DNA of 64,000 bases from Saccharothrix espanaensis DSM 44229 (GTDB lineage Bacteria > Actinomycetota > Actinomycetes > Mycobacteriales > Pseudonocardiaceae), in the NCBI RefSeq assembly GCF_000328705.1, contig NC_019673.1:3038001-3102000 (forward strand), written 5' to 3'. The notes under the pieces were generated by a model. That model was not told where the DNA came from and searched no databases. It saw only the letters and a list, made by a program, of their open reading frames with translations. Shown here piece after piece: positions 56,070-60,753 of the stretch (position 1 is the first letter of the stretch; each line of letters begins with the position of its first letter). The translations under genes and the position numbers were made by a program.

Positions 56070-59000
56070 GTGCCGATTCTCCGATTGGCCGACGACCTCG
56101 ACCCCACCTCGACCGCCGGAGCAGTGCGCTGGACGTTGCACTCCGACACCGGAGCCGACCTCGGTTCCCACGTCTGCGCGGTGGACGACGGTGTCCGGGG
56201 TGTCGAGCGGGCGCTCGCGTTGTTCGAGGGCACGGCCGGCACCCCGGACGGCCGGTCCGAGGTGCCCGCGAACACCATCGCGACCACCGGCCGCTGGGTC
56301 CGTGACGCGGTCCTGGGCCCGTTGGCCGGCGTGCTCCGCAACTCCGGGGAACCGGTCGTCGTGGAGCTGCCGGTCAGGCACAGCGCACTTGCGGCACTCC
56401 CGCTGGAGTTGGCGCTCGCGGGGGACGACGGTGTCCCGCCGCCCGTCGTCTTCCGGCTGCTGCCGGAGAACGAGCGGGTACCGCCGGCCGAGGCGGGCAG
56501 CGGAGCGCTACGGGTGCTGGCGGTCCTGTGCGCGCCTCCGGGCTCGCCGGGCCTGGGCACGTGGCGTGAGCGGCGGATGCTCACCGAGCTTGCCCACCGC
56601 CACGGTTCGGGCGTCGAGCTGACGGTGTTGCAGTACGGCGTGACCGTCGAATCGTTGACGGCGTGCGCGGCGGACGATCGCGGCTGGGACGTCATCCACT
56701 TCGGCGGGCACGGCGACTCCGGCCACCTCGCGTTCGACGACAGGGCGGGCGGTGTCCGGAACGTGACCTCGACCGAACTGGCGACGGCGTTCGCGCCACT
56801 GCGCGGACGGGTCGGGCTGGTCGTCGCGGCCGCCTGCCACTCGGCCGCGGAAGCGCTGGCGGGGTTGCGGCTCTCGTTCGGGATGGCCGCGGAGCGCGCG
56901 TCCACGTCCCGGTACCGAGCCGAGGACGGCAGTGTCGCGAGCGTGCTGGCGACAGCGCTCGACACCACCGTGATCGCGTTCCGGCACCCGCTTGACGACG
57001 CCTACGCGATCGAGTTCTGCGGTCAGTTCTACCGGCAGGCCGTCGACCATGGAACGGACTTCGCCGCCGCCGCCCGTGCCGCGTTCGTCGCGGCTCGACC
57101 GCTCCTGCGGCACCCCGCGCTGGGTATGCCTGTCACGATGTCGTCAAGTTCTGCGCCGCAACGGCTTCGCCCCCTGACGGCGGGCGCTCCCGCCACCGGG
57201 CCGCTCGCCGCCGGGACCGTGTTCGCGGGTCGTGCCGGGGTGCTCACCGAGGCCGCGCGACTGGTGACCGGGCCGGTTCCGTCCCCAGTGCTCACCCTCG
57301 CCGGTCCACCCGGTGTCGGCACGTCGGCGTGCGCCGGTGAACTGGTCACCGCCAGGGCCGACCGGTTCGACCACGTCATCCGGCACGTGGTGCGGCGGGA
57401 GGGGCACGACGGCGAGTCGGCGTTCGCCGCCTTGGTGGTGGCGTTCGACGACGCCGTCGACGGCGCGGAACTGGGACGCCTGTTCGGCGGCCCGGACGGC
57501 TCGCGGGCCGCGTTCACCTGGCTGGCCGACATCGCCGCCCGCCGCCGGCTCCTGCTCGTGCTGGACGACGTCGATCCGCTGCTGGACGCGGACGGTCGCT
57601 GGAACGATCCGCGATGGCGTGCGTTCGTCTCGGCCATCACCGGGCAAAGCGGGCACGGCCGCGTCGTCCTCACGGCCCGGCAGCCGGTGCACGAGCACGA
57701 CGCGCACACCATCCCGGTACCGCTGCTGACCCAGGACGAAGCGCTGCTCCTGTTGCGGGAGTTACCGCACTTCGGCACGTTGCTCAGGCGGACCGCCGCC
57801 GAAGACCGGAAATCGATCACGGACCTCCTTCGCCGCATCCTGGTCCTGGCCGAGGGACGTCCGTACCCGTTGCTGCTGGCCGAGGCCGCCGCAGGCTCCG
57901 TCCACTCGCTCGCGGCCTTCGTGCACGGCGCACGGCCTGGTGACACCGGACTCGCAACGGACACCGCGATGTGGGTGGACCGCGTGTTCGCCGGACTGCC
58001 CGAACACCAGCAGGCGCTCCTGGTCGTCATCCACAACTTGGCCGAGTACGACCGCAACGACGAGGTCGCAGGCGCGGTGCTCGACGTGGTGGACCATCTG
58101 GCTGCCCACCTTGACGAGGAGCAAGGCAGCGCGTCCGAGAAGCCCGCTCTCGCGGTGAACCCGGTCGATGTCCGGCCCGCTGCCGCTGAACTGGTCAGAG
58201 CCGGCCTGTTGCAGGAAATCGGTACCGCGCCGAAGCAGTACCGGCTGCCCATCGCCGTCGCCGGCGTGTGCGACGCGGTCGCGGGCGAGTCTGCCCGCGA
58301 TCAGGTGCGGGTGGCCGCGGTGCTGTGGTGGCGCGGTGTTCTGCGTTCGGCCGTCACTCGTGACCACCGCGTCCTCGACGCGAACCGACAGGCTCAGGCC
58401 CTGGTCGCGATGGTTCCGTACCTGGCGGACTCCGACATCGACTCCGCGTTGCGGGCCGCGGAGCACGGCATCACCCTGGCCCCGGCGTACCGGACGGCAG
58501 CACGGCTGCACGAACCCGTCGAGGCGCTGAACGCAGGGCCTGGTGCGAACACGACCGCGAACATCGTGCTGGCGCGGCTGTTCATGCACCTGGCCCCGGA
58601 CCACGCCGCCGATCGACTTCGGGAGTTGTACTTCAGGTTCACGGCGGCACGGGAACCGCGTGCGGCGCTCGTCGCGGGGTTCCACCTGATCGAGCTGACC
58701 CGCCGTCGTGGCCGATGGACGGCGGAGTTGGTGGAGCTGGCCGATTCGCTGCCGGAACTGAGCGACGAGGCGGGTCTCGGCCCGTGGTCGGCGGTGTCCC
58801 AACGGGCCCGGCGCGCGGAAGTCTGGTTCGAGACCGGGCGGCGTGCGGAAGCGGCGCGCGAACTGGAGGCCGTCGAACGCCTCCTGCCGAACCTGCCTGC
58901 CTTCACCGGGCGGAACGAGAGCACCACCCCCGACAGCGTCCGCGTCGGCGTGACGCAACTGCGGCGCAACATCGAGTTCCGCTCCAGCGAGTGGGAACGC

Positions 59001-59837
59001 GCGCTGGAGAGCAACGCCGCGCTGCTCGCAGGCCAGCTGGCGCTCAAGGCCGACCTGACCACGTTGGCGAAGACCAAGTTCAACGACCACGAGCCGTTGC
59101 GACGGCTCAGCCGCCTGCCGGAGGCGGAAGTCCTGCTGCTCAGGTGCGCTCGCACGTTCCGCCAGGCGGGCGAGACCACCATGCTGGCCGCGGTGTACGG
59201 GGCGTTGGGTGACGTGGCCCGTGATCGCGGCGACCCGCGAGCCGCGCTCCTGCACCTGCGTGATGCGCTGCGGTACGCCTACCGGGTGGGCGACCTCGAA
59301 CTGATCGTCATCACGCACGTGAAGCTCGGCCACATCTACCTGGTACCGGAGAACAACTCGCCGCTGCACGCGCACGCACACCTGATCGCCGGTGTCGCGC
59401 TGAGCGAGGCCGCGAGCCGTGACCACCGAGACCCGTTGCGCACCGACGCCGAGGCGCTGCACGGACTGCCCGCGGGCGGGATCCCCGAGCCGGGCGCCGT
59501 GGCCCGGTTGATCGACGCGCCGCGCCGCGACGTCACGCGGGTGTGGCAACGGGCAGGTGTCACGGCGGATCACCTGACCGCCGCGACCGGGCACACCGTC
59601 ACGGCTGACTGGGCAGCCGCCGACATCGCGAAGATGACCACCCTCCTGGAAGAGGCGACTGGGTTGACCGACCCCTTGAAGGACGAACAGCGCCGCCACG
59701 AAGCCGAGGACGACATCGGCACGGCGGGAGATCGCGGCAGCCCGCCGAAGGAGGAGCTGTGCGGGTGGTGCGAGCGCCCGGTGGCGGGGAAGCACGAGGA
59801 GGGCTGCATCGCCGTCCCGCGAGGCGGCGCCCGGTGA
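56070..59837 (+). CDS. CHAT protease - STAND-like ATPase - TPR-like protein with zinc-knuckle tail
   Basis: 1255 residues. CHAT (caspase-like) domain ~1-360 with the catalytic dyad in WDVIHFGGHGDSGHLAF (His214) and GLVVAAACHSAAEALAG (Cys256). ATPase-like domain ~390-640: LTLAGPPGVGTSACAGELVT in the P-loop position has Thr instead of the essential Lys, while Walker B RRLLLVLDDVDPLLD and VVLTARQPV remain. Helical repeats follow (~740-1180), several TPR-like (LAAVYGALGDVARDRGDPRA). The C-terminus has CGWCERPVAGKHEEGC, a C2HC-type zinc-knuckle pattern. GTG 56070 has GGAAG upstream. Coupled by GTGA to a membrane protein. CHAT-STAND proteins are usually sensors in conflict systems. Confidence 0.88.
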   Translation: MPILRLADDLDPTSTAGAVRWTLHSDTGADLGSHVCAVDDGVRGVERALALFEGTAGTPDGRSEVPANTIATTGRWVRDAVLGPLAGVLRNSGEPVVVELPVRHSALAALPLELALAGDDGVPPPVVFRLLPENERVPPAEAGSGALRVLAVLCAPPGSPGLGTWRERRMLTELAHRHGSGVELTVLQYGVTVESLTACAADDRGWDVIHFGGHGDSGHLAFDDRAGGVRNVTSTELATAFAPLRGRVGLVVAAACHSAAEALAGLRLSFGMAAERASTSRYRAEDGSVASVLATALDTTVIAFRHPLDDAYAIEFCGQFYRQAVDHGTDFAAAARAAFVAARPLLRHPALGMPVTMSSSSAPQRLRPLTAGAPATGPLAAGTVFAGRAGVLTEAARLVTGPVPSPVLTLAGPPGVGTSACAGELVTARADRFDHVIRHVVRREGHDGESAFAALVVAFDDAVDGAELGRLFGGPDGSRAAFTWLADIAARRRLLLVLDDVDPLLDADGRWNDPRWRAFVSAITGQSGHGRVVLTARQPVHEHDAHTIPVPLLTQDEALLLLRELPHFGTLLRRTAAEDRKSITDLLRRILVLAEGRPYPLLLAEAAAGSVHSLAAFVHGARPGDTGLATDTAMWVDRVFAGLPEHQQALLVVIHNLAEYDRNDEVAGAVLDVVDHLAAHLDEEQGSASEKPALAVNPVDVRPAAAELVRAGLLQEIGTAPKQYRLPIAVAGVCDAVAGESARDQVRVAAVLWWRGVLRSAVTRDHRVLDANRQAQALVAMVPYLADSDIDSALRAAEHGITLAPAYRTAARLHEPVEALNAGPGANTTANIVLARLFMHLAPDHAADRLRELYFRFTAAREPRAALVAGFHLIELTRRRGRWTAELVELADSLPELSDEAGLGPWSAVSQRARRAEVWFETGRRAEAARELEAVERLLPNLPAFTGRNESTTPDSVRVGVTQLRRNIEFRSSEWERALESNAALLAGQLALKADLTTLAKTKFNDHEPLRRLSRLPEAEVLLLRCARTFRQAGETTMLAAVYGALGDVARDRGDPRAALLHLRDALRYAYRVGDLELIVITHVKLGHIYLVPENNSPLHAHAHLIAGVALSEAASRDHRDPLRTDAEALHGLPAGGIPEPGAVARLIDAPRRDVTRVWQRAGVTADHLTAATGHTVTADWAAADIAKMTTLLEEATGLTDPLKDEQRRHEAEDDIGTAGDRGSPPKEELCGWCERPVAGKHEEGCIAVPRGGAR

Positions 59838-60499
59838 ACCCCACCTCACCCGGCGCGGAGCGGCCGGCCGAGAACTGGCGCATCGACAACCCGGTGGGTG
59901 TCGTGGAAGCCGACCGCGCCACCAGCACGGCAGCCGCACCGATGCTCGCCGGTTTCTCCTTCGCGTCTGCGGTCGTGCTGCTGACCGCCGAGGACAAACC
60001 GCAGTGGACCGAGCCCGCGCTCACCTGCTTCTTCCTGGCGGCCGCCGCACTGCTGTTCGCCGTGCAGTTCGGAAACGCCGGCCTGATGTACAGCGCCGGC
60101 CCCGCCGAGCGCCTCGCCTGGTTGCCCGACCCCGACAACGTCGCCCACGTCGAACTCGCGAAACGGGTCCAGCACCGCGATTCCGCCGTGGCGGCGCGTT
60201 TCCGACGCCGTGCACGGGCCTGCTACGACACCGGCGTGGTGCTGCTCATGGTCGCGTTGACCGTGGCGAGCGTGCCCGCCGACTGGAACGTGTGGCGGAT
60301 CGTCGTGGTGGCGGTGCTCTCGGTGGTGGTAGTGCTCGAACTGCTGTGGATCGTCGGCGGCCGGACGCGTTTGCGGGCACGGTGGCTGTTGCCCGACTAC
60401 AAGTCCGTCGGCCGCCGCCTTCCACGACCGGCCGTCCCGCCGGCGGCTGACGAGCCGCAGGACGGGGAAGCGCGGCCGGATCGCCAGGCACCTTCGTAG
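59834..60499 (+). CDS. Four-helix membrane protein coupled to the CHAT protein
   Basis: 221 residues starting at GTG 59834 inside the CHAT stop region. Two helices near the N-terminus (MLAGFSFASAVVLLTAED; ALTCFFLAAAALLFAVQFGN), a ~55-residue polar middle (AKRVQHRDSAVAARFRRRAR), two more helices (GVVLLMVALTVASVP; WRIVVVAVLSVVVVLELLWI), and a cytoplasmic tail. No family recognised. The tight coupling suggests a substrate, regulator or membrane effector of the CHAT protease; that is inferred from context only. Confidence 0.75.
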   Translation: MNPTSPGAERPAENWRIDNPVGVVEADRATSTAAAPMLAGFSFASAVVLLTAEDKPQWTEPALTCFFLAAAALLFAVQFGNAGLMYSAGPAERLAWLPDPDNVAHVELAKRVQHRDSAVAARFRRRARACYDTGVVLLMVALTVASVPADWNVWRIVVVAVLSVVVVLELLWIVGGRTRLRARWLLPDYKSVGRRLPRPAVPPAADEPQDGEARPDRQAPS

Positions 60500-60564
60500 G
60501 AGCCGAGTTCTCGTTTTTGCTGCCGAAGGGGTGAACGGTTGGATCGGCGAAGGTCGAGCGATCG

Positions 60565-60753
60565 ATGGACGACGACAGCGCCTACCGGGTCGTCGCGGAA
60601 TTGGTGCGACAGCAGTCGTTAGGGGAAATCCTGCTGCTCAGCCGCGAGCACCACCTTGACGTGAGCGCGCGTCACCGTCTCGTCAAGTTCTACGCACTCT
60701 TGAAGTGCGCGGAGACCCTTCGGTACGACCAGTTCCGAGGTTTCCCGGCTTGA
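60565..60753 (+). CDS. Small protein downstream of the CHAT operon
   Basis: 62 residues, mostly helical: YRVVAELVRQQSLGEILLLS, RHRLVKFYALLKCAETLRYD. No known domain. It follows the membrane protein by 66 bp in the same direction and may be the third member of the module. The ribosome site is weak, so it could also be spurious. Confidence 0.45.
   Translation: MDDDSAYRVVAELVRQQSLGEILLLSREHHLDVSARHRLVKFYALLKCAETLRYDQFRGFPA

Follow-up and report, generated by a model that had tools for sequence, protein, structure and literature searches.

A CHAT-STAND-like protease and a four-helix membrane protein encoded by overlapping genes of Saccharothrix espanaensis: a candidate conflict module

Introduction

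Does a bacterial caspase-like protease act on the membrane protein whose gene overlaps its own? The question is raised by two genes of the soil actinomycete Saccharothrix espanaensis DSM 44229. The first codes for a protein with a CHAT protease domain, a STAND-like domain and TPR-like repeats, the second for a protein with four predicted transmembrane (TM) segments. To our knowledge, few bacterial caspase-like proteases have a known target. Some multicellular bacteria have many such proteases, and a four-TM family that occurs across genera and protease architectures is a concrete candidate partner. Both genes lie in a 64,000-base stretch (bases 3,038,001-3,102,000, in the following called the window) of a single-contig genome of 9,360,653 bases, the size given for this strain in PMC3469384.

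Here we describe an association of the four-TM family with CHAT proteases. Linkage, a conserved catalytic dyad and the predicted topology speak for a protease in control of a membrane output. We give about an even chance to the reading that the pair is a cytoplasm-to-membrane module for conflict or cell death, whose membrane effector is controlled, and probably cut, by the CHAT protein.

Results

The four-TM family is associated with CHAT genes

Taken alone, the four-TM protein looked like an orphan. A first search of 200 genomes of its family (E<=1e-3) gave two matches, one in its own genome and one of 59 residues at 6.7e-4. Among 25 genomes of its genus (E<=0.01) three matches were obtained including its own, the other two lying near E 0.01 and containing internal stops, so that none of the genus's 24 other genomes contained a clear homologue. 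None was found among 43 pattern-matched stretches of genome contigs or in plasmids. The orphan status was overturned by genes adjoining CHAT-STAND relatives and by a profile search from their alignment. This search revealed four-TM relatives in at least 15 of 394 class genomes (about 4%; E<=1e-3) and in at least 16 of 200 genomes of the Nocardiopsis family. A wider alignment (E<=1e-6) detected them in at least 12 of 249 genomes of family f21, in 3 of 35 and in at least 14 of 394 genomes. The prevalence is a lower bound, since the searches that gave 15/394, 16/200, 12/249 and 14/394 scored, for each genome, at most 8, 16, 13 and 8 candidates of the first look, respectively.

In total, 32 four-TM loci (L numbers) in 31 genomes (G numbers) were read; weak matches in G534, G386 and G379 had been excluded beforehand. 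Genes were called with our own codon-bias script and TM segments were assigned by Kyte-Doolittle hydropathy; the gene caller missed or mis-framed the four-TM gene in 6 of 34 loci, and also the CHAT gene of L182. Of the 32 loci, 11 had a CHAT gene no more than about 8 kb away, compared to 0.20 expected from the CHAT density of the 31 genomes, a count based on PF12770, which misses divergent CHAT domains such as the window's own. Without the two Nocardiopsis genomes found via CHAT (G542 and G717), 9 of 30 loci were linked (0.19 expected), and when G445 and the CHAT-rich G324 were also left out, 7 of 28 (0.16 expected). In simulations that disregarded contig ends and genome kinship, with the near-CHAT set compared by eye and genome sizes rounded, none of 200,000 runs was as high as the observed linkage in any of the three sets. 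Streptomyces sedi, which also carries the pair, was found via CHAT and stands outside the 32-locus count. The association of the four-TM family with CHAT proteases is real.

Two CHAT architectures lie near four-TM genes. CHAT-STAND-TPR proteins are encoded at six loci including the window and the S. sedi locus L106, and TPR-CHAT or other CHAT proteins at seven. The CHAT-STAND-linked genomes are G542, G717, G445 and G744. TPR-CHAT genes are linked in G543, G324, G688, G765, G733 and the first locus of G746, while G754 codes for another CHAT protein 5.6 kb away. The four-TM gene is the next gene 3' of the CHAT-STAND gene in L154 and L181 (both Nocardiopsis) and in L155 (G445, of a genus other than Nocardiopsis and Streptomyces), and both genes are on the same strand in L154, L155, L181, L156, L185, L187 and L188. 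Furthermore, a MoxR-type AAA gene adjoins the four-TM relative of G420, and the gene of an AAA protein adjoins the second G746 locus.

The type of CHAT partner follows the four-TM tree. One group joins five of the six CHAT-STAND-linked members to a single other row, with a support of 93/87 and without a star. A second group has eight members and includes six of the seven that are TPR-CHAT- or CHAT-linked (91/77, likewise without a star). This distribution requires 6 changes versus a shuffled mean of 12.0, and none of 200 shuffles was as low. In the five members encoded 3' of a CHAT-STAND gene the C-tail starts with WLLP (Table 1).

Several observations weigh against a dedicated pair. No PF12770 match was present within 8 kb in 21 of the 32 four-TM loci, and this applied to 12 of 12 loci of family f21. 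In four of the 11 linked loci (L159, L182, L191 and L193) the CHAT and four-TM genes occupy opposite strands, and in L188 they lie three genes apart. The CHAT-STAND-linked L193 protein does not carry WLLP, and the motif may reflect shared ancestry, its five bearers being clustered on the tree; because they are kin, we treat WLLP as a lead and not as proof. The first-pass annotation had looked to co-occurrence with CHAT genes across genomes. Co-occurrence was found well above expectation, but the wider family, taken literally, occurs mostly without a CHAT neighbour, an outcome which that annotation had named as refuting its proposal. The loci without a CHAT gene would also fit an ordinary membrane protein that trails a CHAT-STAND gene by chance in a few lineages, as would four f21 loci that have other neighbour genes in common instead. 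Such a chance neighbourhood is highly improbable: the linkage persists after removal of G542, G717, G445 and G324, it involves CHAT proteins of two architectures, and in several genera the genes are tightly coupled.

Some further genes recur near four-TM genes. An open reading frame (ORF) of 91-144 residues is located directly 5' of the genes for distant four-TM relatives in L157, L182, L185, L188 and L190; this ORF family lies near TPR-CHAT, CHAT, MoxR or AAA genes and was unmatched in Pfam in the first four of these loci. In L156 the gene row consists of a TPR-CHAT gene, a 134-residue ORF and the four-TM gene. The genes before this row include one for a TPR protein and one whose start resembles an Hsp70. 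Four loci without a CHAT neighbour (L163, L165, L216 and L218) have nearby genes of 61-102 and 294-321 residues in common, and three of the four also have metabolic neighbour genes in common.

The protease dyad is conserved and the predicted NTPase domain is degenerate

A homologue search with the window protease led to 72 loci, mainly from actinomycetes. Some belonged to Acidobacteriota, Chloroflexota, Planctomycetota and Proteobacteria and one to a Methanothrix bin; a plasmid search was unproductive. The window protein was aligned with 55 of the 72 loci, namely those with a gene call of at least 1100 residues and a summed BLAST score above 150. The catalytic residues His214 and Cys256, which the first-pass annotation had numbered exactly, were invariant in this alignment of 56 rows. 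An AlphaFold2 model of residues 1-640, built on 42 of 53 eligible rows, reached a pLDDT of 83.8. Comparison with the PDB showed the best resemblance to solved CHAT proteases, separase and caspases, followed by NB-ARC domains of plant NLR proteins. Model and comparison confirm a caspase-like CHAT fold of the N-terminus and show an NB-ARC-like fold for residues 380-640.

Family profiles hardly recognise the protein. PF12770 did not match it at E<=1, whereas the homologues L037 and L039 scored 36.8 and 53.6 bits, above the 24-bit cut-off, and the PADLOC 'chat' model gave E=0.018 only. The genome contains 16 PF12770 matches, and the window protein is additional since the profile misses it. The TPR-like repeats noted earlier were recovered by TPR_12 (E=3.9e-5), although the 24.2 bits stayed below the cut-off of 30.1. 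At the C-terminus, the pattern of a possible zinc knuckle was present in the window protein alone among 17 rows.

The ATPase-like core of the first-pass annotation held up as a predicted fold but not as a complete nucleotide-binding site. The Walker A lysine is replaced by Thr418 in the window protein, whereas the other 55 rows have lysine; Asp499 of Walker B is retained in all 56. Because of this replacement, the nucleoside triphosphatase (NTPase) domain appears better described as STAND-like than as an active STAND ATPase. Loss of the lysine suggests a switch no longer reliant on ordinary ATP hydrolysis, or a copy that is losing function. The latter would mean that the pair works in relatives while the S. 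espanaensis NTPase drifts, unless codon 418 is a sequencing error. Thr418 is unique among the rows, a change from AAG to ACG takes one base, and the terminal branch of the window protein on the CHAT-STAND tree is long (1.76 versus a median of 0.36). The degenerate Walker A and the long branch are compatible with decay too and count against a working module. On the other hand, both ORFs are open, the gene overlap, the dyad, Asp499 and WLLP are retained, and codon bias is strong in both genes, with the same G+C content at third codon positions (GC3 0.87). We judge decay or error to be improbable.

The partner is predicted to expose its termini and middle loop to the cytosol

The 221-residue partner has four TM segments according to hydropathy, and no family of Pfam, NCBIfam or PADLOC matched it above cut-off, as the first-pass annotation had anticipated. 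Lysine and arginine are distributed unevenly: the middle loop contains 8, the C-tail 10 and the N-terminal part 3, compared to 1 in each of the short outer loops, of which there are two. From this lopsided distribution the positive-inside rule predicts that the N-terminus, the middle loop and the C-tail should all be cytosolic. AlphaFold2 returned an all-helical model of low confidence (pLDDT 54.9), a point against the proposed module, and PDB sequence searches with the protein and its profile were unproductive.

By topology the partner is not a gasdermin, in agreement with the non-gasdermin effector or substrate suggested before, and no gasdermin family was among the Pfam and PADLOC matches of the protein or its 21-member family. 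The putative sensor family PF13796 scored 20.0 bits, below the gathering threshold of 28.2, and at E<=0.01 it picked up one of the 21 members of the four-TM family. Scans of the 21-member alignment gave scattered weak matches only, including one to PADLOC DruF4 (E 0.0034). SLATT_1 was weakly matched by 3 of the 21 members (best E 2.7e-4). In L158 and L162, the two of these three that were rescanned, the SLATT match spans the loop helix and TM3-TM4. NF033634 (SLATT) did not match the four-TM protein of the window, and the best family score was 20.9 bits compared to a cut-off of 41.

CHAT-STAND proteins adjoin different membrane protein families

Homologues of the four-TM protein (partner type A) were found in 3 of the 72 protease loci. 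They follow CHAT-STAND genes in Nocardiopsis suaedae and N. endophytica (L068 and L096; 36% identity, E 1.4e-18), and in S. sedi L106 the homologue is the second gene 3' (36% identity, E 4.8e-16). A different family of about 220 residues with three TM segments (type B) adjoins 15 of the 72 loci (L073, L078, L081, L083, L085, L086, L089, L091, L093, L107, L112, L115, L118, L134 and L137) in Streptomyces, Wenjunlia, Microtetraspora, Microbispora and Actinomadura; it matched no Pfam family above cut-off. Its gene is mostly the second downstream, past a called ORF of about 50-64 residues, and in L107 it lies upstream on the opposite strand. A paralogue in the S. espanaensis genome (L037:5040-9649) is a CHAT-STAND protein with intact Walker A. 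Located 5' of its gene, with an overlap of 4 bp, is a gene for a 167-residue protein with three predicted TM segments that is unmatched in Pfam (type C). Detectable common ancestry of types A, B and C was rejected, as hhalign probabilities were 1.2, 0.4 and 0.4%, with shallow alignments for B and C.

On a tree of 59 CHAT-STAND proteins, six had a type A, 13 a type B and one a type C partner, and partner type tracked the tree (6 changes versus a shuffled mean of 18.4; 0 of 200 shuffles as low). None of the three types adjoins the remaining 39, which likewise counts against the module. The window protein grouped with L193 by a meeting of long branches, and its placement is unsure. A single clade of the window CHAT protein with those of Nocardiopsis, G445 and S. 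sedi was not rejected (p 0.316, or 0.0865 without L193); therefore the CHAT-STAND/four-TM pairing may have had one origin or two.

Five STAND-TPR relatives (L047, L048, L049, L050 and L028) have no CHAT domain and start with a predicted TM segment instead. All five that were read, from one genome genus, show this arrangement, which supports work at the membrane. It would also be expected if membrane attachment itself matters, that is, if the four-TM protein were an anchor or a sensor of membrane stress or an intruder, which recruits or activates the CHAT-STAND protein while the real target lies elsewhere. EACC1, proposed as sensor or recruiter of its caspase-superfamily partner, provides a precedent (PMC7159879). 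A partner slot filled by unrelated membrane families is what an anchor would permit, and the lost Walker A lysine fits a switch shifted to another partner. However, some members of the four-TM family show a weak SLATT-like match, which hints at an effector, and linkage both to CHAT genes of two architectures and to AAA/MoxR genes would suit an exchangeable output no less than a sensor. We regard an anchor or sensor as somewhat unlikely.

Organization of the locus

The coordinates of all features are compiled in Table 1. The GTGA coupling of the two genes described in the first-pass annotation is present. Upstream of the CHAT-STAND gene are genes for an NlpC/P60 protein, at a distance of 170 nucleotides, and a CapC protein. 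Downstream of the module follow an uncharacterised ORF on the opposite strand and a GntR regulator; genes further 3' presumably belong to an ABC transporter. A promoter and terminator scan of the locus found none. The trailing 62-residue ORF exists as annotated before, but there is no support for a place in the module. It starts 65 nucleotides past the four-TM gene and has a GC3 of 0.79, whereas each of the two module genes has 0.87. A tblastn search at E<=1 detected no relative of it in the other loci retrieved up to that point.

Table 1. Features of the CHAT-STAND/four-TM locus (positions within the window).
Feature	Position	Strand	Basis or remark
CHAT-STAND-TPR protein, 1255 residues, GTG start	56070..59837	+	ORF and fold model
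CHAT protease domain core (predicted), residues 142-372	56493..57185	+	
Catalytic His214 codon	56709..56711	+	His in 56/56 rows
Catalytic Cys256 codon	56835..56837	+	Cys in 56/56 rows
STAND/NB-ARC-like domain (predicted), residues 380-640	57207..57989	+	
Degenerate Walker A, residues 412-419	57303..57326	+	Codon 418 (57321-57323) is ACG, Thr replaces Lys
TPR-like repeat region, residues 1010-1069	59097..59276	+	TPR_12, under curated cut-off
Possible zinc knuckle C-x2-C-x7-H-x3-C, residues 1231-1246	59760..59807	+	Pattern scan, 17 rows
GTGA stop/start overlap of CHAT-STAND and four-TM genes	59834..59837	+	Sequence
Four-TM membrane protein, 221 residues, unnamed family	59834..60499	+	Hydropathy and family searches
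Arg-rich middle loop (predicted cytosolic), residues 81-126	60074..60211	+	Charge count; conserved Trp96 and Gln113
WLLPDY motif opening the C-tail, residues 184-189	60383..60400	+	Window, L106, L154, L155 and L181; 0/29 others
62-residue ORF, not assigned to the module	60565..60753	+	Unmatched in other fetched loci

Discussion

If the gene pair is a module with a membrane effector under CHAT control, the TPR repeats would sense a trigger, and the STAND-like domain would keep the protein off or on. Upon switching, the N-terminal CHAT domain would be released as a protease. The four-TM protein, whose termini and middle loop are predicted to be cytosolic, would serve as membrane output. The CHAT domain would bind it and most likely cut or release it within the loop or the C-tail, where WLLPxY is the best candidate contact. 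Once cut or released, the four-TM protein would alter the membrane. For this module we infer physical contact, cleavage, membrane damage, a trigger and a role in defence.

A broader proposal, which we put forward tentatively and hold to be less than evenly probable, is that, across actinomycetes, CHAT proteases of two architectures and some AAA/MoxR conflict ATPases share the four-TM family as an exchangeable output at the membrane. At least three unrelated families of membrane partners would have been recruited by CHAT-STAND proteins, so that a protease plus a dedicated membrane protein would be a general design with gasdermins as one case, and the STAND switch of the window copy would work without the Walker A lysine. 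If true, protease-triggered membrane control would extend beyond gasdermins, and this in harmless soil bacteria. The linkage of four-TM and CHAT genes points to a little-explored bacterial switch for cell death or defence.

Pairs of a caspase-type protease and a membrane protein dedicated to it are a known kind of arrangement. Searches of an open-access library listed no title or abstract opening that mentions the four-TM family, its linkage to CHAT proteins of two architectures or three unrelated families of partners, and '4TM' is absent from the main texts of PMC7159879 and PMC8195603.

The closest arrangement is the EACC1-caspase pair, the two-gene 'System 4' of Kaur et al. 2020, which is described as prevalent in actinobacteria (PMC7159879). 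Like the module described here, it comprises two genes, an N-terminal caspase-superfamily peptidase, possibly followed by STAND or repeats, and a TM partner (PMC7159879). In contrast, EACC1 is the 5' gene and has a single TM helix with alpha+beta extensions (PMC7159879), whereas the partner in S. espanaensis is the 3' gene and has four TM segments. The position of EACC1 is occupied by the NlpC/P60 protein gene in the window. SLATT proteins belong to conflict systems and are small helical proteins of the membrane (PMC7159879). The four-TM family resembles them in kind and in the weak matches of three members, but the four-TM protein has two more TM segments, and the best NF033634 score in the family is about half the cut-off.

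CHAT-gasdermin pairs likewise place a CHAT-type protease beside a membrane-acting protein, an analogy in the way of working. Gasdermins are soluble proteins that insert into the membrane after cutting, whereas the partner in the window should, by prediction, be helical with four TM segments already before any cutting. The SAVED-CHAT protease (PDB 8tl0) has, by its entry title, a SAVED domain where the window protein has STAND and TPR. In Craspase, which consists of the TPR-CHAT protein Csx29 and Csx30, the structural match of Csx29 covers residues 1-362 only of the window model. Csx29 is not known to have a STAND domain, and its domain order is TPR followed by CHAT. Distant four-TM relatives do adjoin genes with this TPR-then-CHAT order.

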